Assembly (NCBI GenBank): GCA_016861105.1
Contig: BOKS01000014.1
Location: forward strand, 80,718-144,717
DNA length: 64,000 bases
Direction of reading: 5' to 3'
From: Betaproteobacteria bacterium
Lineage (GTDB): Bacteria; Pseudomonadota; Gammaproteobacteria; Burkholderiales; Casimicrobiaceae
This document shows positions 20,322-48,318 of the stretch, one piece after another. Within the stretch, counting starts at the first letter, position 1; the number at the start of each line of letters is the position of its first letter. The notes beneath the pieces are model-generated. The model did not search any database and was not told the origin of the DNA. It saw only the letters and a program-made list of their open reading frames with translations. Position numbers and translations under genes: made by a program.

Positions 20322-20335
20322 TTGACCTGCGTCAA
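20322..20335. promoter_or_regulatory. FNR/ANR-like box between CoA-transferase and P-type ATPase genes
   Basis: TTGACCTGCGTCAA is a perfect inverted repeat of TTGAC around four bases, close to the FNR/ANR consensus TTGAT-N4-ATCAA. It lies 95 bp before the ATPase start and 101 bp before the CoA-transferase start, so it could serve both divergent promoters. On the minus strand a TATACGAT stretch near 20269-20276 sits at a spacing that fits class I activation. Confidence 0.55.
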
Positions 20336-24728: not shown

Positions 24729-24757
24729 GGCGTGCTTTCGTGGGGCGGGCCGGCGAC

Positions 24758-25216: not shown

Positions 25217-25224
25217 GGCACCTC

Positions 25225-27062: not shown

Positions 27063-27075
27063 GGCGCGGCGCCCT

Positions 27076-27723: not shown

Positions 27724-28508
27724 GCGGCAGCCTTCCGGAAGCGTTCGAGGAACGGGGCGTAGCCGTCCTTGCCCAGCCAGAATCCGATGAGCCGCGACAC
27801 CCCGTTGCTGGTGATCGTCGCGCCGGACAGGCCGTCGACGCGGTGCGGATCCTGCGCGGGCGGCCCGGCGGCCCCCTTGATCACGCGCAGCTGCGGCTCC
27901 CACGCGGCGTCGTAGACCTTGCGGCCCTGCCACAGCGCCTGCCAGCGCGGATTGCCGATCTCGCCGCCGAGTCCGGGCGTCTCCTTCTGCTCGTGGAAGG
28001 TGAGCCCGCGCACCGTGTTGCCGTCGCGGTCGAGCGCGACGAAGCCGGCCATCAGACCCCACATGCCGGCGCCCTCGACGGGCAGCACGACCTGCACCGG
28101 TCCCGACGGTCCCTTCACGTAGTAGACCAGGCCGACGATCGGCAGCCGCGTGACGCCGGCGTCGTTCGCCGGCGCGGGGCGCGACATGCCCGGATCGTTG
28201 CGGGCGCGGCGCTGGTCGTAGCTGCGCGGGTCGAGCCCCGTCGCCTGCGCCGGCGCGCCGGTGGCGAGGTCGATCAGCGCCGGCTCGACCGCGCTCTCGA
28301 ACCGCCGCATGAGCTCGGCGTCCGACAGGCGCTCGTCGGGCGCGACGATGCCCGCCGCGAGCAGCACGTTCTTGTGGCGGTACAGCCGCGCGTTCTCGGC
28401 CTGCCGGTCCGCGAGACCCACGGCCGCGACCGAGACCACGAGCGCGCACACGACACAGACGGCGGTCGCGAACAGGACGACGTAGCGCGGCGACTCAAGC
28501 CTTGGCAC
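27720..28508 (-). CDS. nqrC: Na+-translocating NADH:quinone reductase subunit C
   Basis: This 262-residue subunit has one N-terminal helix ([25 protein letters not shown]) and a periplasmic FMN-binding domain. The flavinylation motif is [13 protein letters not shown], where the last Thr of SGAT(I)T carries covalent [18 protein letters not shown] is typical. It overlaps nqrB by 14 bp. Confidence 0.95.
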
Positions 28509-31109: not shown

Positions 31110-31185
31110 GTCGTCTGCAGGGCGCGGCGCGCAGGCCGCACGCTCCTCCTCGTGCCGCGCGCGGAGGGACCGCGCGCAGGGCGAA

Positions 31186-31227
31186 AGCCTAGGGGCGCAT
31201 CGCGGCTGCCGAATTGACCGTCGTCAA
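31186..31227 (-). promoter_or_regulatory. FNR-like box plus -10 element upstream of nqrA
   Basis: TTGACCGTCGTCAA (31214-31227) is a perfect TTGAC-N4-GTCAA palindrome. On the minus strand TAGGCT (31191-31186) lies where the -10 of a class II FNR promoter centred near -41.5 should be. The element sits in the 143-bp gap between the malic enzyme stop and nqrA, so the nqr genes probably have their own oxygen-responsive promoter. Confidence 0.55.
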
Positions 31228-31252
31228 CGAGGCTGCCTCGACGCGGATGTCC

Positions 31253-32923
31253 TCACGCATAGACCGGATAGCGCGGGTCGTACATCAGGCCTTCCACGTA
31301 CGCGAGCAGGTCGCGCGGCCGCTCGATGCGTGCGAGGCCGCCGGCGAACGCGATCTCGGCGACCGCTGCCGCGATCTGCGCCGACACGTGGCGCACGGCG
31401 GACAGCGGCGGGTAGAGGCTGCCCTGCGCGAGGTCGCTCTCGCCCACGGTCGTCGCGAGCGTGCGTGCCGCGGCCATGAACATCGCGTCGGTCGCCCGGG
31501 TCGCCTGCGACGCGAGGAGGCCGAGCCCCACGCCGGGGAAGATGTACGAGTTGTTGCCCTGCCGCGGCACGAAGTGGCGGCCGCGCACGCTCGCCGCGGG
31601 GAACGGGCTGCCCGACGCGAACAGCGCGCGCCCGTCGCTCCACTCGTAGGCCTGCTGCGCCGTGCACTCGGAGCGCGACGTCGGGTTGGACAGCGCGAAG
31701 ACGATCGGCCGCTCGTTGTGCGCCGCCATCGCGCGCACGACGTCCTCGGTGAACGTGTTGGGCGTCGCCGACACGCCGATGATCGCGGTGGGCTCGAGCG
31801 CCTTCACGGCGGACAGGAAGTCCGGCACCGGCGCGTGGGCGTGCGCATAGGGCTTCTTGTGATGCGCGAGATCGCCGCGGCCGGCGACGACCAGTCCCTT
31901 CGAGTCGACCAGCCAGCAGCGGCCGCGCGCCTGAGCCTCCGCCATGCCGTCGTCGACCATCGCCTGGACCAGCAGGTCGGAGATGCCGGTCGCCGCCTCC
32001 CCAGCACCCAGGCACATGAACGTCTGCTCGCGCATCGGCCTGCCGGTGACGCGCAGGGCCGAGAAGATGCCCGCCACGGTGACGGCGGCGGTGCCCTGGA
32101 TGTCGTCGTTGAAGCAGCAGATCTCGTCGCGCCACTTCGCCAGCAGGCGGAACGCGTTGTGGTTCGCGAAGTCCTCGAACTGCACCACCACCCCGGGAAA
32201 CACCTCCTGCGTCGCGTCGAGGAACTCGTCGACCAGCGCGTCGTACTCCTCGCCGGTCGCGCGGGGCCGGGCGAGGCCGAGGTAGAGCGGATCGGAGAGG
32301 AACCTGGGGTTGTTGGTGCCGACGTCCAGCACGACGGGCAGGCACTTGCCGGGATCGATGCCGGCGCACGCCGTGTACAGCGCGAGCTTGCCGATCGGGA
32401 TGCCCATGCCGCTCGCGCCGAGGTCGCCCAGCCCCAGGATGCGCTCGCCGTCGGTGACGACGATCATCGCGACCTCGTGCTGCGGCCAGTTGCGCAGGAT
32501 CTGCCCGACGTGTCCGCGGTCGTCGAGCGACAGGTACATGCCGCGCGGGCGCCGGAAGATGTGCCCGAACTCCTGGCAGGCGAGCCCGACCGTCGGCGTG
32601 TAGACGATCGGCATCATCTCGTCGGGGTAGTCCGTCAGCACGCGGAAGAACAGCGCTTCGTTGCGGTCGTGCAGCGACTCCAGCATGATGTACTTCGCGA
32701 GCGGGGTCTGCAGCCGGTGGAAGTTCTCGAGCACGCGCGCGACCTGGTCCTCCTGCGTCAGCACGTGCGCGGGCAGCAGGCCGCGCAGGCCGAGCGCGTC
32801 GCGCTCGGCGAGCGTGAACGCCGTGCCCTTGTTGAGCGTCGGCTCGCGCAGCAGCGCGACGCCGCGCGGGAACCACGACGGGATCGGCTGGTGCGGATGC
32901 GGCGTGGGGTGCGGATGGCTCAT
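31253..32923 (-). CDS. maeA: NAD(P)-dependent malic enzyme (MaeA/SfcA type)
   Basis: The enzyme oxidatively decarboxylates malate to pyruvate. The 556 residues match the large SfcA-type enzyme: NKGTAFTLAERDALGLRGLLP, MPIVYTPTVGLACQEFGHIFRRPRGMY, VVTDGERILGLGDLGASGMGIPIGKLALY, metal region FEDFANHNAF and FNDDIQGTAAVTVAGI, nucleotide loop LGAGEAATGI, and ALSNPTSRSECTAQQA. The ATG at 32923 has AGGAG upstream; the His/Pro-rich start (MSHPHPTPHPHQP) is unusual. The cofactor preference (NAD or NADP) is not decided. It supplies pyruvate to NifJ encoded upstream. Confidence 0.93.
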   Translation of the reverse strand: MSHPHPTPHPHQPIPSWFPRGVALLREPTLNKGTAFTLAERDALGLRGLLPAHVLTQEDQVARVLENFHRLQTPLAKYIMLESLHDRNEALFFRVLTDYPDEMMPIVYTPTVGLACQEFGHIFRRPRGMYLSLDDRGHVGQILRNWPQHEVAMIVVTDGERILGLGDLGASGMGIPIGKLALYTACAGIDPGKCLPVVLDVGTNNPRFLSDPLYLGLARPRATGEEYDALVDEFLDATQEVFPGVVVQFEDFANHNAFRLLAKWRDEICCFNDDIQGTAAVTVAGIFSALRVTGRPMREQTFMCLGAGEAATGISDLLVQAMVDDGMAEAQARGRCWLVDSKGLVVAGRGDLAHHKKPYAHAHAPVPDFLSAVKALEPTAIIGVSATPNTFTEDVVRAMAAHNERPIVFALSNPTSRSECTAQQAYEWSDGRALFASGSPFPAASVRGRHFVPRQGNNSYIFPGVGLGLLASQATRATDAMFMAAARTLATTVGESDLAQGSLYPPLSAVRHVSAQIAAAVAEIAFAGGLARIERPRDLLAYVEGLMYDPRYPVYA

Positions 32924-33051
32924 GGACGTCGACTCCTGTTGGCCGCGCGCATCGCGGCGCGGGTCCCGCAGGCGGGCGCGCGGCGGCGCGGAGGCGCCCG
33001 CGACCCCGGGCGCGGCGCGCCGCCGCCGGCCGGCGGCGGACGGGGCGGGCG

Positions 33052-33297
33052 CTAGGCGTGCAACGCCTGGTACTTGGCGAGCAGCTGCTCCTTCGACTCC
33101 GCGTGCGCCGGGTCGGGGACGATGCAGTCCGCCGGGCACACGCCGACGCACTGCGGATCGTCGTGCGCGCCCACGCATTCGGTGCACTTGGCCGGGTCGA
33201 TCGTGTAGATCGGCGAGCCGGCCGCGATCGCGTTGTTGGGGCACGGCTCCACGCACGCGTCGCATGCGGTGCAGTCGTCGGTGATCATCAGTGCCAT
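33052..33297 (-). CDS. YfhL-type 2[4Fe-4S] ferredoxin
   Basis: This 81-residue protein has two cluster motifs: CTACDACVEPCP and CTECVGAHDDPQCVGVCP. The longer spacing in the second is typical of Alvin/YfhL-type ferredoxins with very low potential. DCIVPDPAH follows, and then a short alpha-helical tail. Lying between the PFOR/DHOD-like genes and malic enzyme, it is the obvious electron carrier between NifJ and NfnAB. The ATG has AGGAG about 6 bases upstream. Confidence 0.92.
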   Translation of the reverse strand: MALMITDDCTACDACVEPCPNNAIAAGSPIYTIDPAKCTECVGAHDDPQCVGVCPADCIVPDPAHAESKEQLLAKYQALHA

Positions 33298-33356
33298 GGT
33301 TCGCTCCTGTTGGCGTCGGGGGTCGGCGGCGGTCGCCCGCGGCACGCCCTCCGGGG

Positions 33357-34364
33357 TCAGAGATGCTCGCTCGTGTAGGACTTGAGCGCCTTCATGTAGT
33401 TGGCGCGCTCGAACGCGTCGGGGTCCGGGCAGGCGTGCTGCGACAGCGAGCCCTTGAGCTGCGTCACGGACTCGTACTCGCGCGCGGCCATCCACGCCTC
33501 GACGCCGCGCACGAGCGTGGCGACGTGCTGCGGGCCCCGCTTGAGCAGGCTGCTCGCGATCATCACGCAGTCGGCGCCGGCCAGCAGCAGCTTCAGCACG
33601 TCGTCGGGCGTGTGCGCGCCGCCGGTGGCCGCGAGGCTCGCGTCGACGTGCCCGTGCAGGATCGCGATCCAGCGCAGCGCCAGGCGCAGCTCGTCGGAGG
33701 TCGAGAGCACGAGGTGCGGCGCGACCTCCAGCTCCTCGAGCATGATGTCGGGCTGGACGAAGCGGTTGAACAGCACCAGCCCGTTCGCGCCCGCCGCAAC
33801 GAGGCGCATCGCCATGCTGGTCATCGCGCTGAAGTACGGCGCCACCTTCACGGCGACCGGCACGCTCGTGGCCGCGCGCACCGACGCGACGAGGTCGAGG
33901 TAGCGCTGCTCGACGGCGCTCGACGTGTCGGCCGGGTCGGCCGCGAGGAAGTAGACGTTGAGCTCGATGGCCTGCGCGCCGGCGTCCTCGAACTGCTTCG
34001 CCATCCGCGTCCAGCCGCCCGGCGTGTGGCCGTTCAGGCTCGCGATGACGGGGACCGACAGCGCCTTGCGGGCCTCGCCGATGAGCTTCAAATAGCGGGC
34101 GACGCCCGTCTCCTGCGCCTGCACCTCGGGGAAGAACCCGCGCGCCTCCGGCGACAGCTCCGCGCCGTAGAGCATCAGGTCGTGCGTGGCCATCTCCTCG
34201 TGCTCGATCTGCTCCTCGAACAGCGACGGGAGCACGACCGCCGCCACGCCGGCGTCCTGCAGGCGCCTGAGGCCGTCGATCGAGCCGGTCATCGGCGAGG
34301 CCGACGCGACGACCGGGTTGGCCAGCGGGAGGCCGAGGTAGCGGCTCGCGAGATCGACGCTCAT
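33357..34364 (-). CDS. Dihydroorotate dehydrogenase-like flavoprotein
   Basis: This 335-residue FMN TIM-barrel starts VDLASRYLGLPLANPVVASASPMTGSIDGLRRLQDAG and has VPVAVKVAPYFS, ATGGAHTPDDVLKLLLAGADCVMIASSLLKRG. At the position where true PyrD enzymes carry NLSCPN or NFSSPN, this protein has ELNVYFLAADPA, so it is unlikely to be dihydroorotate dehydrogenase. The family is repeatedly found next to pyruvate:ferredoxin oxidoreductase genes. Its ATG overlaps the nifJ stop (ATGA), implying a linked flavin-based redox function of unknown substrate. Confidence 0.85.
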   Translation of the reverse strand: MSVDLASRYLGLPLANPVVASASPMTGSIDGLRRLQDAGVAAVVLPSLFEEQIEHEEMATHDLMLYGAELSPEARGFFPEVQAQETGVARYLKLIGEARKALSVPVIASLNGHTPGGWTRMAKQFEDAGAQAIELNVYFLAADPADTSSAVEQRYLDLVASVRAATSVPVAVKVAPYFSAMTSMAMRLVAAGANGLVLFNRFVQPDIMLEELEVAPHLVLSTSDELRLALRWIAILHGHVDASLAATGGAHTPDDVLKLLLAGADCVMIASSLLKRGPQHVATLVRGVEAWMAAREYESVTQLKGSLSQHACPDPDAFERANYMKALKSYTSEHL

Positions 34365-37300
34365 GGCTTCACCTCCTCGGCGGCCGGCTTCGCGGCCGCG
34401 GCATCGTCGGGCGCCCCGGCCGGCGCGGCCTGCGCCTCCGGGACCACGCGGTGCACGCCGGCGATCTGCTCGTAGAGCTGCCAGCGGGCGTCGGCGTCGG
34501 CCTGCGCCGCGCGGGCGAGCTCCTTCGCGCGGGCCGGGTCGGCCTGCGCGAGCATCGCGTAGCGGCCCTCCTTCATCGTGAACTGCTCCAGCGGGATCGT
34601 GGGCTTGCGCGAGTCGAGCTTCAGCGGCTGGTCGGCGCCGCCCATGCCCAGCCGCGGGTCGTAGCGGTACAGCGTCAGGTAGCCGCTCTTCACCGCGTCG
34701 CGCTGGTGGCTCATGCCGGTGGTCATGTCGATGCCGTGCGCGATGCAGTGGCTGTAGGCGATGATCAGCGACGGCCCCGGCCACGACGCGGCCTCCTGGA
34801 ACGTGCGCACGGTCTGCACCGGGTTGGCCCCCATCGCGACCTGCGCGACGTACACGTTGCCGTACGCCATCGCGATCATGCCGAGGTCCTTCTTGCCGAT
34901 CGCCTTGCCCGCGGCCGCGAACTTCGCCACGGCGCCGCGCGGCGTCGCCTTCGACGCCTGGCCGCCGGTGTTGGAGTAGACCTCGGTGTCGAGCACGAGG
35001 ATGTTCACGTTGCGGCCCGAGGCGAGCACGTGGTCGAGCCCGCCGTAGCCGATGTCGTAGGCCCAGCCGTCGCCGCCGACGATCCACACGCTGCGCACGA
35101 CGAGGCTGTCCGCGACGGCGTCGAGCCGCCGCGCCGCGGGCGTGCCGAGCAGGGCGAGCACCTCCCGCAGCTGCTTCACGCGTGCGCGCTGCGCGGCGAC
35201 CTCCTCGTCGCTGTCCTGCTTCGCGTCGATCAGCGCGTCGGCCAGCTCAGGCCCGATCGCGTCGCGCAGCTCGCGCAGCAGGCCCTTCGCGAGGTCGTTC
35301 TGCGCGTCGATCGCGAGCCGCATGCCGAGCCCGAACTCCGCGTTGTCCTCGAACAGGCTGTTGGCCCACGCGGGCCCCTTGCCGTCGGCGTTCGTGGCGT
35401 ACGGCGTCGTCGGCAGGTTGCCGCCGTAGATCGACGAGCAGCCCGTGGCGTTGGCGACGATCATGCGGTCGCCGTAGAGCTGCGAGATCAGCTTGACGTA
35501 GGGCGTCTCGCCGCAGCCCGAGCAGGCGCCCGAGTACTCGAACAGCGGCCGGCGGAACTGCGACCCGCGCAGCCCGTCGATCGTGTCGAACGACGGCCGC
35601 ACCTCCGGCAGCGAGAGGAAGAACGCGTAGTTGGCGCGCTCGGCGTCGAGGTGCTCGAGCTTGGGCGCCATGTTGATGGCCTTGTGCTTGACCATCGTCT
35701 TGCTGCGCGACGGGCAGACGTCCACGCAGATGCCGCAGCCGGTGCAGTCCTCGGGCGCCACCTGCAGGCTGTACATCATCCCGGCGAGCGAGGGCGTCTC
35801 CTTGCGGGCGTACGGCACCGCCTTGAACGTCGCCGGCGCACCCGCCATCGCCTCGGCCGGGAACGCCGTCATCCGGATCGCCGCGTGCGGGCAGACGAGC
35901 GGGCAGATGGCGCACTGCGTGCAGATCGTCTCGTCCCAGATCGGGATCTCGTGCGCGATGCTGCGCTTCTCCCACTGCGTCGTGCCGGTCGGGAACGTCC
36001 CGTCGACCGGCAGCGCCGACACCGGCAGCAGGTCGCCCTTGCCGTCCATCATCATCGCGGTCACGCGCTGCACGAAGTCCGGCGCGGCCTTCGGGACGAC
36101 CGGGCGGCGCGCGAACGTCGCGTCGGCGTGCTGCGGCACGGTCACCTCGGCCATCGCCGCGAGCGAGGCGTCGACCGCCGCGAAGTTGCGGGCCAGGACG
36201 GTCTCGCCGCGCTTCCCGTAGGTCTTGCGGATCGCCTCCTTGATCTTGCCGATCGCCTCGTCGCGCGGGAGCACGCCCGAGATCGCGAAGAAGCAGGCCT
36301 GCGTGACCGTGTTGATGCGACCCGCCAGCCCGGCCTGCTTCGCGACGGCCAGCGCGTCGACGACGAAGAAGCGCAGCCTGCGCTCGATGATCTGCTGCTG
36401 CGCCTCGCGCGGCAGCCGGCTCCACACCTCGCCCGGACCGTAGGGGCTGTTGAGCAGGAACGTCGCGCCCGGCCGCGCCAGCGCCAGCACGTCGAGCTTC
36501 TCCATGAACTCGAACTGGTGGCAGGCGACGAAGTCCGCCTGCCGCACCAGGTACGTGGACTCGATCGGCGCGGGCCCGAAGCGCAGGTGCGAGACCGTGA
36601 TCGCGCCCGACTTCTTGCTGTCGTAGACGAAGTAGCCCTGCGCGTGCAAGGGCGTGTTCTCGCCGATGATCTTCACCGTGTTCTTCGTCGCCCCCACGGT
36701 GCCGTCGGCGCCCAGGCCGTAGAACACGGCGCGCGTCACGCCCTGCGGCTCGGTGTCGAACGCCTCGTCGACGGCGAGCGAGAGCCGCGTGACGTCGTCG
36801 ACGATGCCGACGGTGAAGTGCCGCCTCGGGGCGGGCTGCCGCAGCTCGTCGAGCGCGGCCCTGGCCATCGCCGGCGTGTACTCCTTGGACGACAGGCCGT
36901 AGCGGCCGCCGATCACGCGCGGCAGCGCCTTGCCGTCCGGCCACGCCTCGGCCAGCGCTGCGACGACGTCCTGGTAGAGCGGCTCGCCCACCGCCCCCGG
37001 CTCCTTCGTGCGGTCGAGCACGGCGATCGAGCGCACGGTCGCCGGCAGCGCCGCCACGAACGACGCCGTGTCGAACGGACGGTAGAGGCGCACGCTGACC
37101 AGCCCCACCTTCTCGCCCGCCGCGACGAGCGTCGCGACCGCCTCGCGCGAGGCGCCGGTGCCCGAGCCCATCTGCACGAGCACGCGCTCGGCGTCGGGCG
37201 CGCCGCTGTAGTCGAACAGCCCGTAGCGCCGGCCGGTCAGCGTCGCGAAGCGGTCCATCGACTCGCGCACGATGCCCGGGACGGCGAGGTAGAACGGGTT

Positions 37301-37996
37301 GCACGCCTCTCGCGCCTGGAAGAAGACGTCCGGGTTCTGGGCGGAACCGCGGAGCTTCGGGGCGTCCGGGTTGAGCGCGCGCTCGCGGTGCGCGCGCACC
37401 AGGTCCTCGTCGATCAGCGCGCGGACGTCGTCCTCGAGCAGGAGCTCGATCTTGTTGACCTCGTGGCTCGTGCGGAAGCCGTCGAAGAAGTGCAGGAACG
37501 GCACGCGCGCCTTCAGCGTCGACATGTGCGCGATCATCGCCATGTCCTGCGCCTCCTGCACGCTGGCGGAGGCCAGCAGCGCGAAGCCGGTGGCGCGGGC
37601 GGCCATCACGTCGCTGTGGTCGCCAAAGATCGACAGCGCGTGCGTGGCGATCGTCCGCGCGGCGATGTGGAACACCGCGGGCGTCAGCTCGCCCGCGATC
37701 TTGAACATGTTCGGCAGCTTGAGCAGCAGGCCCTGCGAAGCGGTGAAGGTCGTCGTCAGCGCGCCCGCCTGCAGCGAGCCGTGCACCGCGCCCGCCGCGC
37801 CGGCCTCGCTCTGCATCTCGACGACCTGCGGGACCATGCCCCAGATGTTCTTCTGGCCTGCCGCGGACCACGCGTCCGCGAGCTCGCCCATCGTCGACGA
37901 CGGCGTGATCGGGTAGATCGCGATCACCTCGCTGTTGAGGTGCGCGATGCGGGCGGCGGCTTCGTTGCCGTCGAGGACGTAGGTTCGGTCGCTCAT
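34361..37996 (-). CDS. nifJ: Pyruvate:ferredoxin (flavodoxin) oxidoreductase
   Basis: This single-chain PFOR of 1211 residues converts pyruvate and CoA to acetyl-CoA, CO2 and reduced ferredoxin. Domain order is standard: a TPP/pyrimidine domain (MSDRTYVLDGNEAAARIAH ... YPITPSSTMGE), a gamma-like domain (FYGLGADGTVGATKNTVKII), and two [4Fe-4S] ferredoxin motifs (ICTQCAICPLVCP near 690, CTGCGICVDVCP near 747). The TPP-binding domain has SGACSGCGETPY, GCSSIYGGN and GGDGWAYDIGYGG (near 980). The final Cys for the third cluster is visible in SYSHC-like IAYSHCIAHG. The oxygen-sensitive chemistry implies anaerobic or microaerobic use. Confidence 0.96.
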   Translation of the reverse strand: MSDRTYVLDGNEAAARIAHLNSEVIAIYPITPSSTMGELADAWSAAGQKNIWGMVPQVVEMQSEAGAAGAVHGSLQAGALTTTFTASQGLLLKLPNMFKIAGELTPAVFHIAARTIATHALSIFGDHSDVMAARATGFALLASASVQEAQDMAMIAHMSTLKARVPFLHFFDGFRTSHEVNKIELLLEDDVRALIDEDLVRAHRERALNPDAPKLRGSAQNPDVFFQAREACNPFYLAVPGIVRESMDRFATLTGRRYGLFDYSGAPDAERVLVQMGSGTGASREAVATLVAAGEKVGLVSVRLYRPFDTASFVAALPATVRSIAVLDRTKEPGAVGEPLYQDVVAALAEAWPDGKALPRVIGGRYGLSSKEYTPAMARAALDELRQPAPRRHFTVGIVDDVTRLSLAVDEAFDTEPQGVTRAVFYGLGADGTVGATKNTVKIIGENTPLHAQGYFVYDSKKSGAITVSHLRFGPAPIESTYLVRQADFVACHQFEFMEKLDVLALARPGATFLLNSPYGPGEVWSRLPREAQQQIIERRLRFFVVDALAVAKQAGLAGRINTVTQACFFAISGVLPRDEAIGKIKEAIRKTYGKRGETVLARNFAAVDASLAAMAEVTVPQHADATFARRPVVPKAAPDFVQRVTAMMMDGKGDLLPVSALPVDGTFPTGTTQWEKRSIAHEIPIWDETICTQCAICPLVCPHAAIRMTAFPAEAMAGAPATFKAVPYARKETPSLAGMMYSLQVAPEDCTGCGICVDVCPSRSKTMVKHKAINMAPKLEHLDAERANYAFFLSLPEVRPSFDTIDGLRGSQFRRPLFEYSGACSGCGETPYVKLISQLYGDRMIVANATGCSSIYGGNLPTTPYATNADGKGPAWANSLFEDNAEFGLGMRLAIDAQNDLAKGLLRELRDAIGPELADALIDAKQDSDEEVAAQRARVKQLREVLALLGTPAARRLDAVADSLVVRSVWIVGGDGWAYDIGYGGLDHVLASGRNVNILVLDTEVYSNTGGQASKATPRGAVAKFAAAGKAIGKKDLGMIAMAYGNVYVAQVAMGANPVQTVRTFQEAASWPGPSLIIAYSHCIAHGIDMTTGMSHQRDAVKSGYLTLYRYDPRLGMGGADQPLKLDSRKPTIPLEQFTMKEGRYAMLAQADPARAKELARAAQADADARWQLYEQIAGVHRVVPEAQAAPAGAPDDAAAAKPAAEEVKP

Positions 37997-38166: not shown

Positions 38167-38820
38167 TCAGAGGAGACCCGGCTTGCCGGCCGCCCAGCGC
38201 CGGTACTCGGTGGTCAGGAGCTCGACGTGCTCGCGCTCCTCGGCGGCGAGCTCGCGGTAGAGCTCGCGCTCGACCGAGCCCTCCGGCGCGCGCTCGCCCT
38301 CGCGGGCGAAGAAGTCGACCGCGCGCTGCTCGAAGGCGATCGCGATGCGGAACAGGTTCGCGGGATCCTCCGGCTTGCGGTCGACGCCGGCGAAGATCGC
38401 CGCGCGGTCGATCTGGAAGTCGGCGGAAGGCGCGGGCAGCGCGGCGTGGTAGCGCTTCGACAGCGTCTGCATGTGCTCCTGCTCCATCGCCGCGAAGCGC
38501 GCGAACAGGTCGCGCAGCTCCGGGTCGGCCGCGTCCTGCGCCGCGCGCTGGTAGAAGGCGTGGCCGCCGAGCTCGATCTCGAAGGCCTTGCGCACCGCCT
38601 CCATCGCGCTGTCGTCCGCGATCGCGCCGCGCTCGAGCAGGTCGAGCCGGCCCTTGCAGTGCGGGCACAGGCCGTAGGGGAAGGCGAAGCCCTCGGAGAC
38701 CTTGTGGCAGGAGGCGCAGCGCCAGGAGAGCTCGACGCCCGCGCAGCAGATGTACGGCTCGTCGTCGTCGAGCGGGCGCTGGCAGCGCGGGCAGACGGCC
38801 ATCGACGTGGCGGCGGTCAT
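38167..38820 (-). CDS. Rubrerythrin-like ferritin-fold protein with N-terminal zinc ribbons
   Basis: This 217-residue protein begins with metal-binding Cys pairs (VCPRCQRPL, YICCAG, RCASC, LCPHC) that look like zinc-ribbon or rubredoxin-like knuckles. A four-helix ferritin-like domain follows, carrying Glu and EQEH-type ligands (EIELGGHAFYQRAAQ, FAAMEQEHMQTL, IAFEQRAVDFF, LAAEEREHVELL). This is a rubrerythrin-like diiron protein, probably a peroxide or oxygen scavenger that protects the neighbouring PFOR. The ribbon is at the N-terminus, unlike classical rubrerythrin. The ATG overlaps the nfnAB stop. Confidence 0.82.
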   Translation of the reverse strand: MTAATSMAVCPRCQRPLDDDEPYICCAGVELSWRCASCHKVSEGFAFPYGLCPHCKGRLDLLERGAIADDSAMEAVRKAFEIELGGHAFYQRAAQDAADPELRDLFARFAAMEQEHMQTLSKRYHAALPAPSADFQIDRAAIFAGVDRKPEDPANLFRIAIAFEQRAVDFFAREGERAPEGSVERELYRELAAEEREHVELLTTEYRRWAAGKPGLL

Positions 38821-41189
38821 GACGCTTCCTCGGTCTGGGTTGTCGTGGCGCCCGGCACGCCGGTGCCCGGCGGGACGAACGCTTCGGCGTGCTCGGCCGT
38901 GACCGGCCACACCGACTTGCCGCCGGCGAGCCAGGCGGCGATCGCGCGGGCGGCGCGGCGGCCCGCGCCCATCGCCAGGATCACGGTGGCCGCGCCCGTC
39001 ACGATGTCGCCGCCGGCGAACACGCCGGGGACGCTGGTCGCCTGCGTGGCGGGGTCGGCGACGATGTAGCCCCACTTGTTGAGGTCGAGGCCGGGAGTCG
39101 ACTTGGTCACGATCGGGTTGGCCTTCGTGCCGAGCGCGTAGATCACCGTGTCGCACTCGAGCTCGACGAACTCGTCCAGCGGCACCGGCTTGCGGCGGCC
39201 CTTCTCGTCGGGCTCGCCGAGTTCCATCTTCTGGACCTTCATGCCACGCACGTTGCCGTCCGCGTCGGTCAGGATCTCGACGGGCGCGTGGAGGAAGAAG
39301 AACTCGATGCCTTCCTCCTTGGCGTGGCGGAGCTCCTCGATGCGCGCCGGGGCCTCGGCTTCCGAGCGGCGGTACACGCAGCGGACCGTCGGGATGCCGA
39401 GCCGCCTGGCCACGCGCAGGCAGTCCATCGCCGTGTTGCCGGCGCCGATCACCACCACGCTCCTGCCCAGCGTGACCGGCGTGTCGAGGTAGGGGAACTT
39501 GTCGCCGCCCATCAGGTTGACGCGCGTCAGGAACTCGTTGGCGGAGTAGACCTGCCCCGCGAACTCGCCGGGGATGCCGAGGAACGCGGGCGCGCCCGCC
39601 CCGGCCCCCACGAAGACGGCATCGAAGCCCATCGGCCCCAGCAGCTCGGGCACCGAGAACGTCTTGCCGATCACCTTGTTGGTCTCGAAGCGGACGCCCA
39701 TGCCGGCGAGGTTCTCGACCTCGCGGGCGATGATGTCGCGCGGCAGCCGGAAGGACGGGATGCCGTACTGCAGCACGCCCCCCACGACGTGCAGCGCTTC
39801 GTAGACGGTGACGTCGCACCCGTACTTCGCGAGGTCGGCGGCGACGGCGAGCCCGGAGGGGCCGGAGCCGACCACCGCGACCCTGCCCAGCCTGCGGGCG
39901 ACGCTGCGCGGCTGCGCCCCGGGCGCGCGGGCGTTGTCGCCGACGAAGCGCTCGAGGCGGCCGATCGCGACCGCCTCCATCGGCAGCTTCTTGTTCTTCG
40001 CCACGACGCACTGCGCCTCGCACTGCGACTCCTGCGGGCACACGCGGCCGCACACCGACGGGAACAGGTTCGACTCGTTGATGACCGCGAGCGCGCCGTC
40101 GAGGTCGCGCACCAGCAGGTGGCGGATGAAGCGCGGGATGTCGATCCCGACCGGGCAGCCCTCGATGCAGGTCGGCTTGCTGCACTGGATGCAGCGCTCG
40201 GCCTCGCCGATCGCGTCGGCCATCGAGTAGCCGAGGTTCACCTCCTTGAAGTTGCGCGACCGCTCGACGGGGTCGCGCTCGGGCATCTTCACCGCGTGCG
40301 GCGGCAGGTCCTTGTACTTCTTGTAGTTGCGCTTGCCCTCGTCGAACAGCTGCTTCTCGACGTGGCAGACGTGCGCGTAGTCGTCGCTCGCCTTCGACTC
40401 CTCGCCCTTGAAGCGCTTCTGGCGCAGCATGAGCTCGCGGAAGTCGACCTGGTGGCCGTCGAAGTCCGGCCCGTCGACGCAGGCGAAGCGGATCTCGTCG
40501 CCGACCGTGACGCGGCAGGAGCCGCACATCCCGGTGCCGTCGACCATGATCGCGTTGAGCGACACCATCGTCTTCACGCCCGACGGCCGGGTCGTCTCGA
40601 CGCACGCGTTCATCATCGGCAGCGGCCCGATGGCGATCGCGAGGTCCGGGCGGTCGCGCGCGATCAGGTCCTTCAGCGCCTCGGTGACGAATCCGGGCCG
40701 GCCGTAGCTGCCGTCGTCGGTGCAGACGACGAGCTCGTCGCAGTAGCGGGCGAACTTCTCCTCCCAGAACACGAGGTCCCTGGTGCGAAAGCCGATGATG
40801 CCGGTCGTCCGGTTGCCCGCCTCCTTGAACGCGCGCAGCTGCGGGTAGACCGGCGCGACGCCCAGGCCGCCGCCGACCAGCACGACGTGCCCCGCTTCGT
40901 GGACGTGCTGCGCAAGCCCGAGCGGTCCCACGAAGTCGGCGAACGTGTCGCCCTCCCGGTAGTGGTCGCGCATCTCCAGCGTCGTCTTGCCGAGCGCCTG
41001 GATGACCATGGTGATCGTCCCGCGCTCGCGGTCGAAGTCGGCGACGGTGAGCGGGATGCGCTCGCTGCCCTCGTGCAGGCGCAGCATGACGAAGTGGCCG
41101 GGCTGGGCGGCGCGCGCCACGTCGGGCGCCTCGACCTCCCAGAGGAACGTCGTCTCCGAGAACGCCTCGCGGCGGAGAATCCTGTACAT
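38817..41189 (-). CDS. Fused NfnA-NfnB: NADH-dependent ferredoxin:NADP+ oxidoreductase
   Basis: This 790-residue chain joins two normally separate subunits. Residues 1-285 are the ferredoxin-NADP reductase-like NfnA (FAD region IPLTVADFD, NAD region LVGGGLGVAPVYPQL, [2Fe-2S] site GTGMCGSCRVTVGDEIRFAC). Residues about 330-790 are the GltD-like NfnB, with [4Fe-4S] Cys (CIQCSKPTCIEGCP, CGRVCPQESQCEAQC), FAD loop GSGPSGLAVA and NADP loop GAGNTAMDCLRVARR. Known NfnAB bifurcates electrons between ferredoxin, NADH and NADPH. It begins the minus-strand redox operon, 239 bp from an FNR-like box. A simple sulfide dehydrogenase (SudAB) role is the main alternative. Confidence 0.88.
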   Translation of the reverse strand: MYRILRREAFSETTFLWEVEAPDVARAAQPGHFVMLRLHEGSERIPLTVADFDRERGTITMVIQALGKTTLEMRDHYREGDTFADFVGPLGLAQHVHEAGHVVLVGGGLGVAPVYPQLRAFKEAGNRTTGIIGFRTRDLVFWEEKFARYCDELVVCTDDGSYGRPGFVTEALKDLIARDRPDLAIAIGPLPMMNACVETTRPSGVKTMVSLNAIMVDGTGMCGSCRVTVGDEIRFACVDGPDFDGHQVDFRELMLRQKRFKGEESKASDDYAHVCHVEKQLFDEGKRNYKKYKDLPPHAVKMPERDPVERSRNFKEVNLGYSMADAIGEAERCIQCSKPTCIEGCPVGIDIPRFIRHLLVRDLDGALAVINESNLFPSVCGRVCPQESQCEAQCVVAKNKKLPMEAVAIGRLERFVGDNARAPGAQPRSVARRLGRVAVVGSGPSGLAVAADLAKYGCDVTVYEALHVVGGVLQYGIPSFRLPRDIIAREVENLAGMGVRFETNKVIGKTFSVPELLGPMGFDAVFVGAGAGAPAFLGIPGEFAGQVYSANEFLTRVNLMGGDKFPYLDTPVTLGRSVVVIGAGNTAMDCLRVARRLGIPTVRCVYRRSEAEAPARIEELRHAKEEGIEFFFLHAPVEILTDADGNVRGMKVQKMELGEPDEKGRRKPVPLDEFVELECDTVIYALGTKANPIVTKSTPGLDLNKWGYIVADPATQATSVPGVFAGGDIVTGAATVILAMGAGRRAARAIAAWLAGGKSVWPVTAEHAEAFVPPGTGVPGATTTQTEEAS

Positions 41190-41427: not shown

Positions 41428-41441
41428 TTGATCGAGGTCAA
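41428..41441. promoter_or_regulatory. FNR-like box upstream of nfnAB
   Basis: TTGATCGAGGTCAA matches TTGAT-N4-(A/G)TCAA. It lies in the 551-bp divergent gap between nfnAB (minus) and frdC (plus), 239 bp from the nfnAB ATG. On the minus strand an AGCATT stretch near 41399-41404 is at about the right distance for a -10. The intervening 200 bp contains no gene I can support. Confidence 0.45.
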
Positions 41442-41656: not shown

Positions 41657-41670
41657 TTGACGGCCATCAA
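41657..41670. promoter_or_regulatory. FNR-like box upstream of frdCAB
   Basis: TTGACGGCCATCAA, centred 77 bp before the frdC ATG, matches TTGAC-N4-ATCAA. A possible -10 (GCTAAC, 41691-41696) lies close to the spacing of a class II FNR promoter. This is the strongest candidate promoter of the fumarate reductase operon. Confidence 0.55.
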
Positions 41671-41740: not shown

Positions 41741-42514
41741 ATGGCTTCGACGAGCCCGACGATCGCCGGCGCGGGCCTGGCCGAGCGCCCGCGCCGCAGC
41801 CGCGTCCCCGCGCGTCTCGACCTGCTGCAGAGCGCGACGGGGCTCGTGCTCGCGCTGTTCATGTGGGGCCACATGTTCTTCGTGTCGACGATCCTCGTCA
41901 GCAAGGACTTCATGTGGACCGTCACGAAGATGTTCGAGGGCTACTTCATCTTCGGCAGGCCCTACCCGGGGATCGTGTCGGTGATCGTGTTCGGGATCCT
42001 CGTGCTGTTCGTCGCGCACGCGTTCCTCGCCGTGCGCAAGCTGCCGATCAGCTTCCGCCAGTGGCAGATGTACCGCGGCCACATGAAGGTGATGAAGCAC
42101 GAGGACACGACCCTGTGGTGGGTGCAGGCCGTGACCGGCTTCATGCTGTTCTTCCTGGTGACCGTGCACCTCTACCAGATGCTGATGCACCCCGGCCTGA
42201 TCGGACCCTACGAGTCGGCCGACCGCGTGTGGACCGGACGCTGGTGGCCGCTCTACCTCGTGATGCTGTTCGCCGTCGAGCTGCACGGCGGCATCGGCCT
42301 CTACCGCCTCGCCGTCAAGTGGGGCTGGTTCGAGCGCGGCGACGCCGACGCGACGCGCGCCACGCTGAAGAAGGCGAAGTGGGTGCTGACGGTGTTCTTC
42401 CTCGTGCTCGGCCTGGCGACGCTGGCGGCGTACATGAAGATCGGCTACGAGCACGCCGACCGGGCGGGCGAGCGCTACGTGCCCGCGTCGGTGCAACCGG
42501 GAGCCGTGCAATGA
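41741..42514 (+). CDS. frdC: Fumarate reductase cytochrome b subunit (Wolinella type)
   Basis: This 257-residue integral membrane subunit has five hydrophobic segments. It shows the dihaem cytochrome b pattern: [22 protein letters not shown] (His in M1), [64 protein letters not shown]. The large single C-subunit and gene order C-A-B match Wolinella-type quinol:fumarate reductases rather than the SdhCD/FrdCD type. It feeds quinol electrons to FrdAB. The ATG has AGGAG upstream, and the stop overlaps the frdA ATG. Confidence 0.92.
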
Positions 42515-44544
42515 AGGTCGTCTACACCGACGTTCTCGTCATCGGCGGCGGGCTCGCGGGCCTGCGGCTCGCCATCGCGGCCAGGCGCCGCGGCCACGAC
42601 GCGCTGATCCTGTCGCTCGTGCCGCCGAAGCGCTCGCACAGCAAGGCGGCGCAGGGGGGCATGCAGGCCTCGCTCGGCAACGTGATCAAGGGCCAGGGCG
42701 ACAACGAGGACGTGCACTTCGAGGACACCGTGCGCGGCTCCGACTGGGGTGCCGACCAGGAGGTCGTGCGCATGTTCGTCAACACGGCGCCCAAGGCGGT
42801 GCGCGAGCTGGCGGCCTGGGGCGTGCCGTGGAGCCGCGTGCGCAAGGGCGACCGGCAGGTCGTCATCAACGGCCAGAAGGTGACGATCACCGAGCGCGAC
42901 GAGGCGCACGGCCTCGTCGCGCAGCGCGACTTCGGCGGCACGAAGAAGTGGCGCACCTGCTACGTCTCCGACTGCACCGGCCACGCGATGCTGCAGGCGG
43001 TCGGCGACCAGGCGATCGCCGCGGCCATCCCGGTGCACGAACGCACCGAGGCGCTGGCGCTCATCCACGACGGCGGGCGCTGCTACGGCGCCGTCGTGCG
43101 CGACCTCGTCACGGGAACGCTGTCCGCGTATCTGGCCAAGGCGACGGCGATCACGACGGGCGGCGCGGGGCGGCTCTACCGCGTGACGACCAACGCCGTG
43201 ATCTGCGAGGGCATCGGCCACGCGATCGCGCTGGAGACCGGCGTGGCGGCCCTCGGCAACATGGAGGCGGTGCAGTTCCATCCGACGGGCATCTTCCCGG
43301 CCGGCATCCTCGTCACCGAGGGCTGCCGCGGCGACGGCGGCCTGCTCAAGGACGCGGACGGCCACCGCTTCATGCCCGACTACGAGCCCGAGAAGAAGGA
43401 GCTCGCCTCGCGCGACGTGGTGTCGCGGCGGATGGAGGAGCACATCGCCAAGGGCAAGGGGGTCAAGTCGCGCTTCGGCGACCACCTCTGGCTCGACATC
43501 ACGCTGCTCGGCGAGCAGCACATCCGCCACAACCTGCGCGAGGTCTACGAGATCTGCCACTACTTCATGGGCGTGGACCCGGTGAAGGACATGATCCCGG
43601 TGCGCCCGGCGCAGCACTACACGATGGGCGGGGTGCGGACGAAGCCGAGCGGCGAGAGCCCCACGCTCAAGGGCCTGTTCTCCGCCGGCGAGGCCGCCTG
43701 CTGGGACATGCACGGCTTCAACCGCCTCGGCGGCAATTCGGTCGCCGAGACCGTCGTGGCCGGCATGATCGTCGGCGAGTACGTCGCCGACTTCTGCGAC
43801 CGCGCCGAGAACGACGTGAACATCCCGACCGGCGTCGTGCGCGAATTCCTCGAGCGCGAGCAGGCCAAGCTCGACCGGCTGGCGCAGGGCGGCGGCAGCG
43901 AGGACGCGGCGAAGCTCAAGGCGCGCATGCAGGAGATCATGACCGCCAAGGTCGGCATCTTCCGCCGCGGCAAGGACCTCGAGGAGGCCGTCGACGAGCT
44001 CCAGGAGCTGCTGGTGCGCAGCCGCAGCATCGGGCTGCGCTCGCGCGCGCCGGGTCCCAACCCGGAGCTGGTGACGGCCTACCGCACGCAGAAGATGCTC
44101 AGGCTCGCGCTGACGGTCGCGTACGGCGCGCTCACGCGCACCGAGAGCCGCGGCGCGCACTTCCGCGAGGACCATCCGCGCCGCGACGACGCGCAGTGGC
44201 TGAAGCGCACGCTGGCGACGTGGAAGAGCGACGCGGACACGCTCCCCACGCTCGACTACGAGCCGCTCGACATCAGGCGCATGGAGCTGCCGCCCGGCTG
44301 GCGCGGGTACGGCGCGAAGGACTACACCGACCACCCCGACACCGCGGCGCGGCAGGCGGAGGTCGACGCGCTGAAGGAGAAGCACGCCGACCGCTTCGCG
44401 CGCCAGCGCGCACTCATGCCCTACGACCACCTGCTGCCGCAACGGCTCAAGGGGCGCAACGAGCGCATCGACGAGCGGTTCCCGGCGGCGCCGGGCGGCG
44501 CGGGCGACACGCCGGAGTCCGCGTTCGCCTGGGAAAGCGAGTGA
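42511..44544 (+). CDS. frdA: Fumarate reductase flavoprotein subunit
   Basis: This 677-residue catalytic subunit reduces fumarate to succinate. It has the Rossmann [17 protein letters not shown] and the covalent FAD site His43 in [14 protein letters not shown], the same position as in Wolinella FrdA. Also present are the substrate-site stretches [28 protein letters not shown]-like [12 protein letters not shown] and [13 protein letters not shown], and [13 protein letters not shown]. Length exceeds E. coli FrdA (about 600), as in epsilonproteobacterial enzymes. It could run as succinate dehydrogenase, but the neighbours favour fumarate respiration. Confidence 0.95.
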
Positions 44545-44553
44545 GGTGAGGAC

Positions 44554-45366
44554 GTGACGACCACGACCATCGTGAAGGCCCCCTCGACGAGCGCGCCGCC
44601 GGCGCCGGCGGCGGCCGCGGCCCCGGCTGGTGGCGTCGCCACCGGCGCGAAGATCCGCGTGCACGCGCTGCGCTACAACCCGCAGGAGCCTGGCAGCGTC
44701 CCGCACATGCAGACCTACGAGCTCGAGCAGACGGAAGGGATGACGCTGTTCATCGCGCTCTCCGAGATCCGCGAGACGCTGGATCCCACGCTGCAGTTCG
44801 ACTTCGTCTGCCGCGCCGGCATCTGCGGCAGCTGCGCGATGATGGTCAACGGACGCCCGACGCTCGCCTGCCGCACGCTGACGCGCGACGTCGGGCCGGA
44901 CATCACGCTGGCGCCGCTGCCGGTGTTCGAGCTCATCGGCGACCTGTCGGTCAACACCGGCAGGTGGATGCGCGGCACCAGCGAGCGCCTGGAGGCGTGG
45001 CTGCACGGGGACCCCCAGGCCCGCGACATCTGCCGCATCGAGGAGCCGATGGAGCCGGAGCTCGCCGAGAAGCTGAACGAGCTGGACCGCTGCGTGGAGT
45101 GCGGCTGCTGCGTGGCCGCTTGCGGGACGGCGCGCATGCGGCCCGACTTCGTCGGCGCGGTGGGCATGGCGAAGATCGCCCGCTTCCGCCTCGACCCGCG
45201 CGACAAGCGCACCGACGACGACTACTACGAGCTGGTGGGCACCGACGACGGCGTGTTCGGCTGCATGTCGCTGCTCGCCTGCCACGACGTGTGCCCGAAG
45301 GACCTGCCGCTGCAGACGCAGATCGCCTTCCTGCGGCGCAAGATGGCCGGAAAGGGCTGGGCTTGA
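44554..45366 (+). CDS. frdB: Fumarate reductase iron-sulfur subunit
   Basis: This 270-residue electron-transfer subunit has a [2Fe-2S] motif FVCRAGICGSCAMMVNGRPTLACRTL. The [4Fe-4S] and [3Fe-4S] ligands follow in CVECGCCVAAC and CMSLLACHDVCPK. It starts at GTG, 9 bp after frdA. The first about 30 residues are an Ala/Pro-rich tail (STSAPPAPAAAAAPAGG) not normal for FrdB, so the functional start may be a later codon. It completes frdCAB. Confidence 0.94.
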   Translation: MTTTTIVKAPSTSAPPAPAAAAAPAGGVATGAKIRVHALRYNPQEPGSVPHMQTYELEQTEGMTLFIALSEIRETLDPTLQFDFVCRAGICGSCAMMVNGRPTLACRTLTRDVGPDITLAPLPVFELIGDLSVNTGRWMRGTSERLEAWLHGDPQARDICRIEEPMEPELAEKLNELDRCVECGCCVAACGTARMRPDFVGAVGMAKIARFRLDPRDKRTDDDYYELVGTDDGVFGCMSLLACHDVCPKDLPLQTQIAFLRRKMAGKGWA

Positions 45367-45404
45367 CTTGAACGACGGACCGACCTGAAGGCCGGCCGAC
45401 ATCT

Positions 45405-45450
45405 CACATCGTCGTCCCCGCGGAGGCGGGGACCCAGTGTCCTTCGACGA
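45405..45450. repeat. REP-like repeat upstream of aspA
   Basis: The core CCCCGCGGAGGCGGGG (45416-45431) is a perfect hairpin. With its flanks CATCGTCGT and ACCCAGTGTCCTTCGA it closely matches the right half of the repeat at 6972-7045. It occupies the frdB-aspA gap, where it may terminate or process the frd transcript. Confidence 0.65.
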
Positions 45451-45499
45451 GGTCGGCGCTGGATCCCCCGTCCGCCGGACGGCACCGCGAGGTTACAGC

Positions 45500-46903
45500 A
45501 TGGCAACGCGCATCGAAAAGGACTTCCTCGGAGCGAAGGAGATTCCCGCGGACGCGTACTACGGCGTCCAGACGCTCCGCGGCAAGGAGAACTTCCACAT
45601 CACCGGCATCCCGATGTCGCTGGAGCCGAACTTCGTCAAGGCGTTCGGCTACGTGAAGAAGGCCGCCGCACTCGCCAACCGCGACCTCGGCGTGCTCGAC
45701 GCGAAGATCGCCGACGCGATCGCGAAGGCCTGCGACCGCCTGATCGCCGGCGAGATGCGCGACCAGTTCGTCACCGACTTCATCCAGGGCGGCGCCGGCA
45801 CCTCGACGAACATGAACGCCAACGAGGTCATCGCCAACCTGGCGCTGGAGAGCCTCGGGCACGCGAAGGGCGACTACCAGCACGTCAACCCGAACGACCA
45901 CGTGAACTTCGGGCAGTCGACCAACGACATGTACCCGACCGCGTTCCGCCTCGCGCTGATCATGCGGCTGGAGAGCTACATGGGCTCGCTGACCGCGCTG
46001 CAGGAGGCGTTCTTCGCGAAGGGCAGGGAGTTCGGCAAGGTCCTGAAGATGGGCCGCACGCACCTGCAGGACGCCGTGCCGATGTCGCTGGGCCAGGAAT
46101 TCCACGGCTGGGGGACGACGATCGGCGAGGAAGTGCAGCGCATCGCGGAGGTGCGGCAGTTCCTCCACGAGATCAACCTCGGCGCCACCGCGATCGGCAC
46201 GACCGTCACGGCCGCTCCCGGCTATCCGGAGCTCGCCACGAAGCACCTCTCCGAGCTGACCGGACGCAAGTTCATCCTCGCCGGCGACCTGATCGAGGCG
46301 ACCTCCGACACCGGCGCCTACGTGCTGCTCTCCGGCGTGCTGAAGCGCACCTCGTCGAAGCTCACCAAGATCTGCAACGACCTCCGGCTGCTCGCCTCCG
46401 GTCCGCGCTGCGGGCTGAACGAGATCAACCTGCCGCAGATGCAGCCGGGCAGCTCGATCATGCCCGGCAAGGTGAACCCGGTGATTCCCGAGGTCGTGAA
46501 CCAGGTCGGCTTCCTCGTCATCGGGCTCGACCTCACCGTCACGCTGGCCGCCTCCGCTGGCCAGCTGCAGCTCAACGTGATGGAGCCGGTGATCACCTTC
46601 GCGCTGTTCACCTCGATCGCGACGATGGAGAACGCGGTGAACAGCCTGCGGGTCAACTGCGTTGCCGGGATCACGGCGAACGCCGAGCGGACGCGCGACA
46701 TGGTGCTGAACTCGCTCGGCATCGTCACGCTGCTCAAGCCGGCGCTCGGCTACAAGCAGTGCGCCGAGCTCGCGCGCGAGGGCTACGAGACCGGCAAGTC
46801 GCTGCACGACATCGTCGTCAAGGAGCGCAAGCTCATGACGCAGGCGAAGTGGGACGAGACGTTCTCGTTCGAGAACCTGATCAACCCGAAGTTCGAACAA
46901 TAG
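45500..46903 (+). CDS. aspA: Aspartate ammonia-lyase
   Basis: AspA converts aspartate to fumarate and ammonia, here feeding the adjacent fumarate reductase. The 467 residues have the fumarase/aspartase signature GSSIMPGKVNP near residue 318. They also carry GGAGTSTNMNANEVIANLA, HVNFGQSTNDMYPTA and GRTHLQDAVPMSLGQEF. The N-terminal IEKDFLGAKEIPADAYYGVQT (LGxxxIP, YYGVQT) is typical of aspartase rather than fumarase C. The ATG at 45500 is the start, although the track ORF begins upstream. Confidence 0.94.
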   Translation: MATRIEKDFLGAKEIPADAYYGVQTLRGKENFHITGIPMSLEPNFVKAFGYVKKAAALANRDLGVLDAKIADAIAKACDRLIAGEMRDQFVTDFIQGGAGTSTNMNANEVIANLALESLGHAKGDYQHVNPNDHVNFGQSTNDMYPTAFRLALIMRLESYMGSLTALQEAFFAKGREFGKVLKMGRTHLQDAVPMSLGQEFHGWGTTIGEEVQRIAEVRQFLHEINLGATAIGTTVTAAPGYPELATKHLSELTGRKFILAGDLIEATSDTGAYVLLSGVLKRTSSKLTKICNDLRLLASGPRCGLNEINLPQMQPGSSIMPGKVNPVIPEVVNQVGFLVIGLDLTVTLAASAGQLQLNVMEPVITFALFTSIATMENAVNSLRVNCVAGITANAERTRDMVLNSLGIVTLLKPALGYKQCAELAREGYETGKSLHDIVVKERKLMTQAKWDETFSFENLINPKFEQ

Positions 46904-46929
46904 GACAAGCCCGGCGCTGAAGCGGCGGT

Positions 46930-46962
46930 CCGGCGATCGACGCGACGCCTTCCGATCGCCGG
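46930..46962. terminator. Stem-loop between aspA and the Dcu carrier gene
   Basis: CCGGCGATCG pairs perfectly with CGATCGCCGG across a 13-base loop, 27 bp after the aspA stop. There is no T-tract, so it may be an attenuator or an mRNA-processing hairpin rather than a full terminator. Confidence 0.4.
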
Positions 46963-46989
46963 CCGCGTCAGCCGCCGCAAGGAACACCA

Positions 46990-48318
46990 ATGACACTGTC
47001 GATCGTTCTGCAGTTCGCCGTCGTGCTGGCGGCGATCTGGATGGGCGCGCGCTTCTCCGGCGTGGGCCTCGGCCTGTGGGGCGCCGTCGGGCTCCTCGTC
47101 CTCATCGTCGTCTTCAACGTCAACCCCACGTCGCCGCCGGTCGACGTCATGCTGATCATCCTCGCGGTGATCATGGCGGCGTCCGTGATGGACGCCGCGG
47201 GCGGCATCGACTTCCTCGTGCGCGTCGCCGAACGGATCATCCGCGCGAACCCGAAGTACGTGACGATCGTCGCGCCGCTCACCACGTGGACGTTCACGTT
47301 CTTCGCGGGGACCGGCCACATCGTCTACCCGCTGCTGCCGGTGATCTACGAGACCGCGCACCAGAGCGGCATCCGGCCCGAGCGCCCGATGGCGGTCGCG
47401 ACGATCGCCTCGCAGCAGGCGATCACGGCGAGCCCGGTGGCCGCCGCCACCGCCGCGATGATCGGCCTGTTCAGCGAAAAGGGCCTGTCGCAGTGGGGCC
47501 TGCCGGAGATCCTGATGGTCTGCGTCCCGGCGACGCTCGCCGGCGTGATCGTCGCCGCGATCGTGTCGATGTTCATCGGCAAGGACCTGAAGGACGATCC
47601 CGAGTACCAGGCGCGGCTCGCGGCCGGGAAGATCCCCGCCCCGAAGACCGCCGAGCAGGAGCGGGCGCCGCTCAAGCCGACGGCGAAGCTCTCCGCGTTC
47701 CTGTTCCTCGCGGGCGTGATCACCGTCGTGGTGCTCGGCTTCTTCCCGGCGCTGCGGACGCTCCCCGGCGCGAAGGCGGCCGTGTCGATGCCGATCGTCA
47801 TCGAGGTGACGATGATGTCCGTGGCCGCGGTCATGCTGCTGCTGACCCGCACGCCGGTGGACGAGGTGACGAAGACGCCGACGCTGCGCGCCGGCGTCGT
47901 CGCGGTGATCGGCATCTTCGGCCTGGCGTGGCTCGGCGACAGCTTCATCGCCGCGCACCGGGACGTGATCGTGCCGGCGATCGGCGACTGGGCGAAGGCC
48001 GCGCCGTGGACGTTCGCGTTCGGCCTGTTCTTCGCGTCGGTGCTCCTCTACAGCCAGGCCGCGACCACGCGCGCGCTGATGCCGCTCGGCCTCGCGCTCG
48101 GCATCCCGCCGCAGTTCCTGATCGCGATGTTCCCGTCGGTCAACGGCTACTTCTTCATCCCGACCTACGGCTCGCTGATCGCGGCGATCAACTTCGACCT
48201 GTCGGGGACGACGCGGATCGGCCGCTACGTGCTCAACCACTCGTTCATGATCCCGGGCCTGGTCGCCACGTCGGTGGCGGTGATCGTCGGCCTGCTGCTC
48301 GCCGGGCTGATGTTCTGA
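46990..48318 (+). CDS. Dcu-family anaerobic C4-dicarboxylate carrier
   Basis: This 442-residue inner-membrane protein has 10 or more hydrophobic segments. It shows the Dcu pattern: QFAVVLAAIWMGARFSGVGLGLWGAVGLLVLI, NPTSPPVDVMLIILAVIMAASVMDAAGGIDFLV, ANPKYVTIVAPLTTWTFTFFAGTGHIVYPLLPVIYE and IASQQAITASPVAAATAAM. DcuA/DcuB exchange aspartate, fumarate or malate against succinate during fumarate respiration. Which of the two it resembles more is not clear to me. Position after aspA matches the aspA-dcuA pairing known in enterobacteria. Confidence 0.93.
   Translation: MTLSIVLQFAVVLAAIWMGARFSGVGLGLWGAVGLLVLIVVFNVNPTSPPVDVMLIILAVIMAASVMDAAGGIDFLVRVAERIIRANPKYVTIVAPLTTWTFTFFAGTGHIVYPLLPVIYETAHQSGIRPERPMAVATIASQQAITASPVAAATAAMIGLFSEKGLSQWGLPEILMVCVPATLAGVIVAAIVSMFIGKDLKDDPEYQARLAAGKIPAPKTAEQERAPLKPTAKLSAFLFLAGVITVVVLGFFPALRTLPGAKAAVSMPIVIEVTMMSVAAVMLLLTRTPVDEVTKTPTLRAGVVAVIGIFGLAWLGDSFIAAHRDVIVPAIGDWAKAAPWTFAFGLFFASVLLYSQAATTRALMPLGLALGIPPQFLIAMFPSVNGYFFIPTYGSLIAAINFDLSGTTRIGRYVLNHSFMIPGLVATSVAVIVGLLLAGLMF

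Follow-up and report, generated by a model that had tools for sequence, protein, structure and literature searches.

A one-chain NfnA-NfnB that forms a gene unit with a rubrerythrin-like protein in Betaproteobacteria

Two-subunit NfnAB is represented by the crystal structures of the Thermotoga maritima enzyme (4YLF/4YRY) and of Pyrococcus furiosus NfnI (5JCA). A one-chain form, in which NfnA is followed by NfnB, has been described as 'Pattern B' in clostridia, Bacteroidetes and Fusobacteria, with Clostridium autoethanogenum, C. ljungdahlii, C. ragsdalei and many Bacteroidaceae, Prevotellaceae and Fusobacteriaceae as hosts (Liang et al. 2019, PMC6405883). The words Betaproteobacteria, ferritin and rubrerythrin do not occur in the text of that study. 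A still longer chain is represented by the database family NF009413 / PRK12775, whose name, 'trifunctional 2-polyprenylphenol hydroxylase / glutamate synthase subunit beta / ferritin domain', describes homology rather than function. Two further systems set precedents for flavoprotein-driven peroxidase or oxygen chemistry: a rubrerythrin-like peroxidase driven by NADPH and FNR as separate parts (PMC3317640), and a self-sufficient flavodiiron-rubredoxin-NROR fusion (PMC9364112).

The window analysed here, a stretch of 64,000 nucleotides from a betaproteobacterium of the Casimicrobiaceae (assembly GCA_016861105.1, contig BOKS01000014.1), encodes a one-chain NfnA-NfnB at 38817-41189 on the reverse strand, the strand of all gene and protein-motif coordinates below unless stated otherwise. 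The frame of nfnAB starts with ATG and comprises 790 residues with no internal stop. The FNR/PyrK-like NfnA half, carrying the a-FAD, the NAD site and the [2Fe-2S] cluster, occupies 40356-41189 (about residues 1-278; matches 5jca_S and 4ylf_A), and the GltD-like NfnB half, with two [4Fe-4S] clusters, the b-FAD and the NADP site, occupies 38922-40295 (about residues 299-756; matches 4ylf_B and 5jca_L). Residues 1-262 give a full-length alignment to the NfnA-type (beta) subunit of Pyrococcus NfnI (5jca_S; E 7e-91), and residues 301-761 align with Thermotoga NfnB (4ylf_B; E 7e-150). TIGR01316 and NF004862 were also matched above their cut-offs. Between the halves lies a join at 40296-40355 (about residues 279-298, as delimited by the ends of the 5jca_S and 5jca_L alignments), which is unbroken in relatives. 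About 20 independent genomes carry the same uninterrupted one-chain NfnAB, with 69-90% identity, so the fusion is neither a sequencing error nor a chance event. This confirms the fused NfnA-NfnB of the preliminary description, the boundaries of which were also right; a stop codon in the linker, which that description named as grounds for abandoning the idea, was found in none of these genomes. The ends of the Pyrococcus alignments suggest a simple end-to-end join with about 13-20 extra residues. We found no support for the accompanying suggestion that the fusion fixes the distances between flavins, since the join appears simple and the flavins are already held across a fixed interface in the two-chain crystal structures (4YRY/5JCA).

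The cofactor motifs published for Nfn (Liang et al. 2019, PMC6405883) were used to assess both halves, and each of those assigned to the two FADs and the three clusters is present. The a-FAD strand ERxPxT appears as ERIPLT at residue 43. The [2Fe-2S] pattern DGTGMCGxCRx10CV, including its aspartate, appears as DGTGMCGSCR-x10-CV at residue 217 (DGTGMCGSCRVTVGDEIRFACV; 40476-40541, residues 217-238). In NfnB, RCx2Cx4Cx3CPV is found at residue 332 (RCIQCSKPTCIEGCPV; 40149-40196, residues 332-347) and GRVCPQExQCx3C at residue 381, beginning GRVCPQESQC (GRVCPQESQCEAQC; 40008-40049, residues 381-394); the next GxxER lies two residues farther away than the x13 of the published pattern. R481 (39747-39749) in the SFRLP motif takes the alignment position of T. 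maritima R187, the arginine located at N5 of the bifurcating FAD (PMC6405883), and YRR is found at residue 606. The NAD-site region (GFRTKDLVFWEDK, DGSYG) is like that of NfnI and unlike that of the NAD-inactive NfnII. With both halves matching Nfn structures and all the published cofactor motifs kept, the identity of the protein is well founded; loss of the residues around the bifurcating FAD, the other outcome that would have spoken against it, was not seen, as R481 and the cluster ligands are retained. Bifurcation activity and the direction of the reaction are inferred from these features.

The window NfnAB conforms to Pattern B in carrying NfnA and then NfnB on a single chain, with no intervening domain and a length of about 750-800 residues, and it shares the cofactor motifs and the b-FAD arginine with the two-subunit enzymes of T. 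maritima and P. furiosus, which consist of two chains instead of one. The preliminary description had stated that the halves are two proteins in clostridia, which stands in part but fails for the three Clostridium species named above. However, the window protein is only about 48% identical to the Bacteroides Pattern B fusion, and in a tree of 28 sequences (a small sample with long outgroup branches) the Bacteroides fusion grouped with a two-gene Parabacteroides Nfn, apart from the clade of the window. This hints that the A-B fusion of the window clade may have arisen separately from that of Bacteroides. The fusion of NfnA and NfnB is thus already published and in itself adds little; more interesting is the little-studied unit that it forms with rubrerythrin.

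The best NCBIfam model for the window NfnAB is NF009413, a chain of 1006 positions that ends in a ferritin domain. NfnAB covers positions 1-775, and positions 792-1006 are covered by an adjoining gene of 217 residues (38167-38820; E 1.6e-100; Pfam Rubrerythrin E 1.7e-8), which the preliminary description had overlooked. The stop of nfnAB overlaps the start of this gene in an ATGA (38817-38820). Since NF009413 spans both genes and the two overlap, the window NfnAB is part of a larger unit. The genes score 1541 and 337 bits separately, each below the single-chain cut-off of 1895 bits because NfnAB and the ferritin module are two overlapping genes. A literature search for fusions of Nfn with rubrerythrin or ferritin returned nothing relevant in the open literature, nor was biochemistry found for the window NfnAB or its family.

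The partner protein has a cysteine-rich N-terminus, a rubredoxin-like part and then a ferritin-like diiron bundle, that is, the organization of a rubrerythrin with reversed domain order. The rubredoxin-like site WRCASC-x13-CPHC (38650-38724, residues 33-57) contains C35, C38, C52 and C55, a rubredoxin-type Cys4 set that is invariant in 18 sequences. The best PDB match of a WRCxxC-x13-CPxC profile was the rubredoxin domain of Desulfovibrio vulgaris rubrerythrin, a weak match (E 0.002), and zinc rather than iron might occupy the site. The ferritin-like four-helix domain (38191-38613, residues 70-210) shows the two ExxH motifs of a rubrerythrin diiron site (E113xxH116 and E195xxH198) with the further glutamates E81/E83 and E164, and the ligands E81, E83, E113, H116, E164, E194, E195 and H198 are invariant in the same 18 sequences. 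The AlphaFold model of the partner (pLDDT 82) matched bacterioferritins and the COG1633 proteins 2fzf and 2oh3 in Foldseek, and the latter two were matched by sequence as well. The protein shares the Cys4 site and the diiron bundle with rubrerythrins and reverse rubrerythrins, but differs in that its rubredoxin-like part is N-terminal and preceded by an extra cysteine-rich stretch, in the 13-residue spacer between the CxxC pairs and in its genetic tie to Nfn.

A scan with the partner alignment identified 19 named loci, and whole-genome searches added further genomes. In six loci (L048, L049, L050, L052, L053 and L054) the rubrerythrin module is part of one chain with NfnAB; L009 is the same sequence as L052, and L050 and L054 are cut by a contig end. 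The hosts of the one-chain form are Anaeromyxobacter, Rhodospirillales/alphaproteobacteria and two Sphaerotilaceae. In the three-part chains of the latter (L053 and L054) the outer cysteine-rich stretch is gone, but the four rubredoxin-like cysteines are retained. The two proteins are split in 17 related betaproteobacterial loci (L039-L047, L051, L055-L057, L067-L069 and L071), with the ATGA junction in 13, an overlapping GTGA/TGATG in L055 and short gaps in three. Because the identical ATGA overlap recurs in 13 other loci, a sequencing error behind the split could be rejected; inspection by eye of the window junction revealed no slippery heptamer for a programmed -1 frameshift joining the two genes. 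In the 28-sequence tree, the state changed between fused and split at least twice on well-supported branches. That these proteins have repeatedly become fused or separated strongly hints at a working partnership between NfnAB and rubrerythrin. The unit is rare, occurring in seven of 399 genomes of the order and in one of 289 from the class to which the alphaproteobacterium G191 belongs, and Nfn and the rubrerythrin module adjoin in every module-bearing locus, with or without pyruvate:ferredoxin oxidoreductase (PFOR). Plasmid carriage was rejected as well: the module is absent from plasmid records, where NfnAB matches are less than 60% identical. L067, from the same genus as the window, and L068, from the same family, carry a different version of the unit without PFOR, with NfnAB 74-76% identical. 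This version groups with the alphaproteobacterial form, which suggests horizontal transfer or lost paralogues. A 0.9 Mb genome (L011) has a fused NfnAB of this clade in a locus without the rubrerythrin module, so Nfn can do without rubrerythrin.

The unit is followed by genes for PFOR (34361-37996; TIGR02176, 1754 bits, over cut-off), a dihydroorotate dehydrogenase-like (DHOD-like) protein (33357-34364; NF005741, over cut-off) and a 4Fe-4S ferredoxin (33052-33288; Pfam Fer4), the last conserved behind PFOR in related loci. The order NfnAB-rubrerythrin pair, PFOR, DHOD-like protein and ferredoxin is common to most betaproteobacterial loci, and PFOR is not adjacent to the unit in Anaeromyxobacter, alphaproteobacteria and some betaproteobacteria. 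The surroundings resemble an anaerobic energy-metabolism island: together with PFOR, the reverse-strand stretch 23679-34364 holds the DHOD-like and ferredoxin genes and, farther from the unit, malic enzyme and Na+-NQR genes, the latter accompanied by an ApbE-like gene, and the divergent forward-strand stretch 41741-48318 encodes an epsilon-type fumarate reductase FrdCAB, an aspartase-type lyase and a DcuA/DcuB-type carrier. A second, two-gene Nfn is encoded elsewhere in the source genome (L079, C1:650000-669000), adjoining two sets of 2-oxoacid:ferredoxin oxidoreductase genes and a GltD-like iron-sulfur flavoprotein; both Nfns thus lie beside a ferredoxin-reducing enzyme.

Two FNR/Anr-type boxes, TTGATCGAGGTCAA upstream of nfnAB (41428-41441) and TTGACGGCCATCAA (41657-41670), are located between nfnAB and frdC and are the sole one-mismatch FNR-type matches in the window. 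Strict boxes (TTGAY-N4-RTCAA) occur four times in the window, at 20322-20335, 31214-31227, 41428-41441 and 41657-41670, and relaxed matches are enriched (13 observed against 2.1 expected). Of the 11 PFOR-linked loci whose upstream DNA is complete, nine have FNR-type boxes 5' of nfnAB, as against none of the seven loci without PFOR; some of the loci counted are close relatives and not fully independent.

Judged from gene content and conserved residues, the unit probably serves as a confurcating transhydrogenase paired with a rubrerythrin peroxidase, in an anaerobic role switched by FNR/Anr. During anaerobic growth, an FNR/Anr regulator probably switches the unit on, and translational coupling would yield NfnAB and the rubrerythrin-like diiron protein from one unit. 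PFOR would reduce the co-encoded ferredoxin, and Nfn would join the electrons of this ferredoxin and of NADH to form NADPH; such NADPH formation is the most likely function and the best-supported account. When oxygen is encountered, the rubrerythrin part most likely reduces peroxide, shielding PFOR and iron-sulfur clusters, as a dedicated peroxidase that is perhaps fed by Nfn. Electrons from Nfn could plausibly enter at the rubredoxin-like centre, and the flavoprotein-driven precedents make a direct transfer from Nfn to the Cys4 site attractive, although that path is inferred. The AlphaFold model of the 1006-residue Anaeromyxobacter chain was poor (pLDDT 58) and was set aside. A self-sufficient, bifurcation-linked peroxidase, in which Nfn makes NADPH and also feeds the rubredoxin centre directly under an oxygen-dependent switch, is a more tentative extension that we consider possible but doubtful.

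It is rather unlikely that Nfn and rubrerythrin are merely co-regulated neighbours, with another donor feeding rubrerythrin and the fusion only setting their ratio. Such an arrangement would agree with the separate proteins in the window and 17 relatives, with the Nfn that stands alone in L011 and with the known FNR-driven peroxidase made of separate parts (PMC3317640). However, wherever the rubrerythrin module occurs it stays with Nfn, including loci in which PFOR is missing, the fused state was gained or lost at least twice, and the two cysteines closest to the diiron domain never vary, whereas the outer cysteines are lost in L053 and L054. That NfnAB is a non-bifurcating, plain NAD(P)H oxidoreductase, for example a dedicated NADPH:rubrerythrin reductase or a partner of the DHOD-like protein, is very improbable. 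In its favour, PyrK and GltD are the respective homologues of NfnA and NfnB, the cluster includes a DHOD-like gene, and the second, ordinary two-gene Nfn could supply the transhydrogenase work. Against it, every residue linked to bifurcation is kept, R481 and the [2Fe-2S] aspartate among them, and PFOR and ferredoxin adjoin.

A confurcating transhydrogenase paired with rubrerythrin remains the preferred reading. We know of no dedicated reductase for the rubrerythrins of most organisms. For this reason the NfnAB-rubrerythrin unit would matter, and also because, through it, oxygen defence would be tied directly to an electron-bifurcating enzyme in bacteria that alternate between air and its absence.
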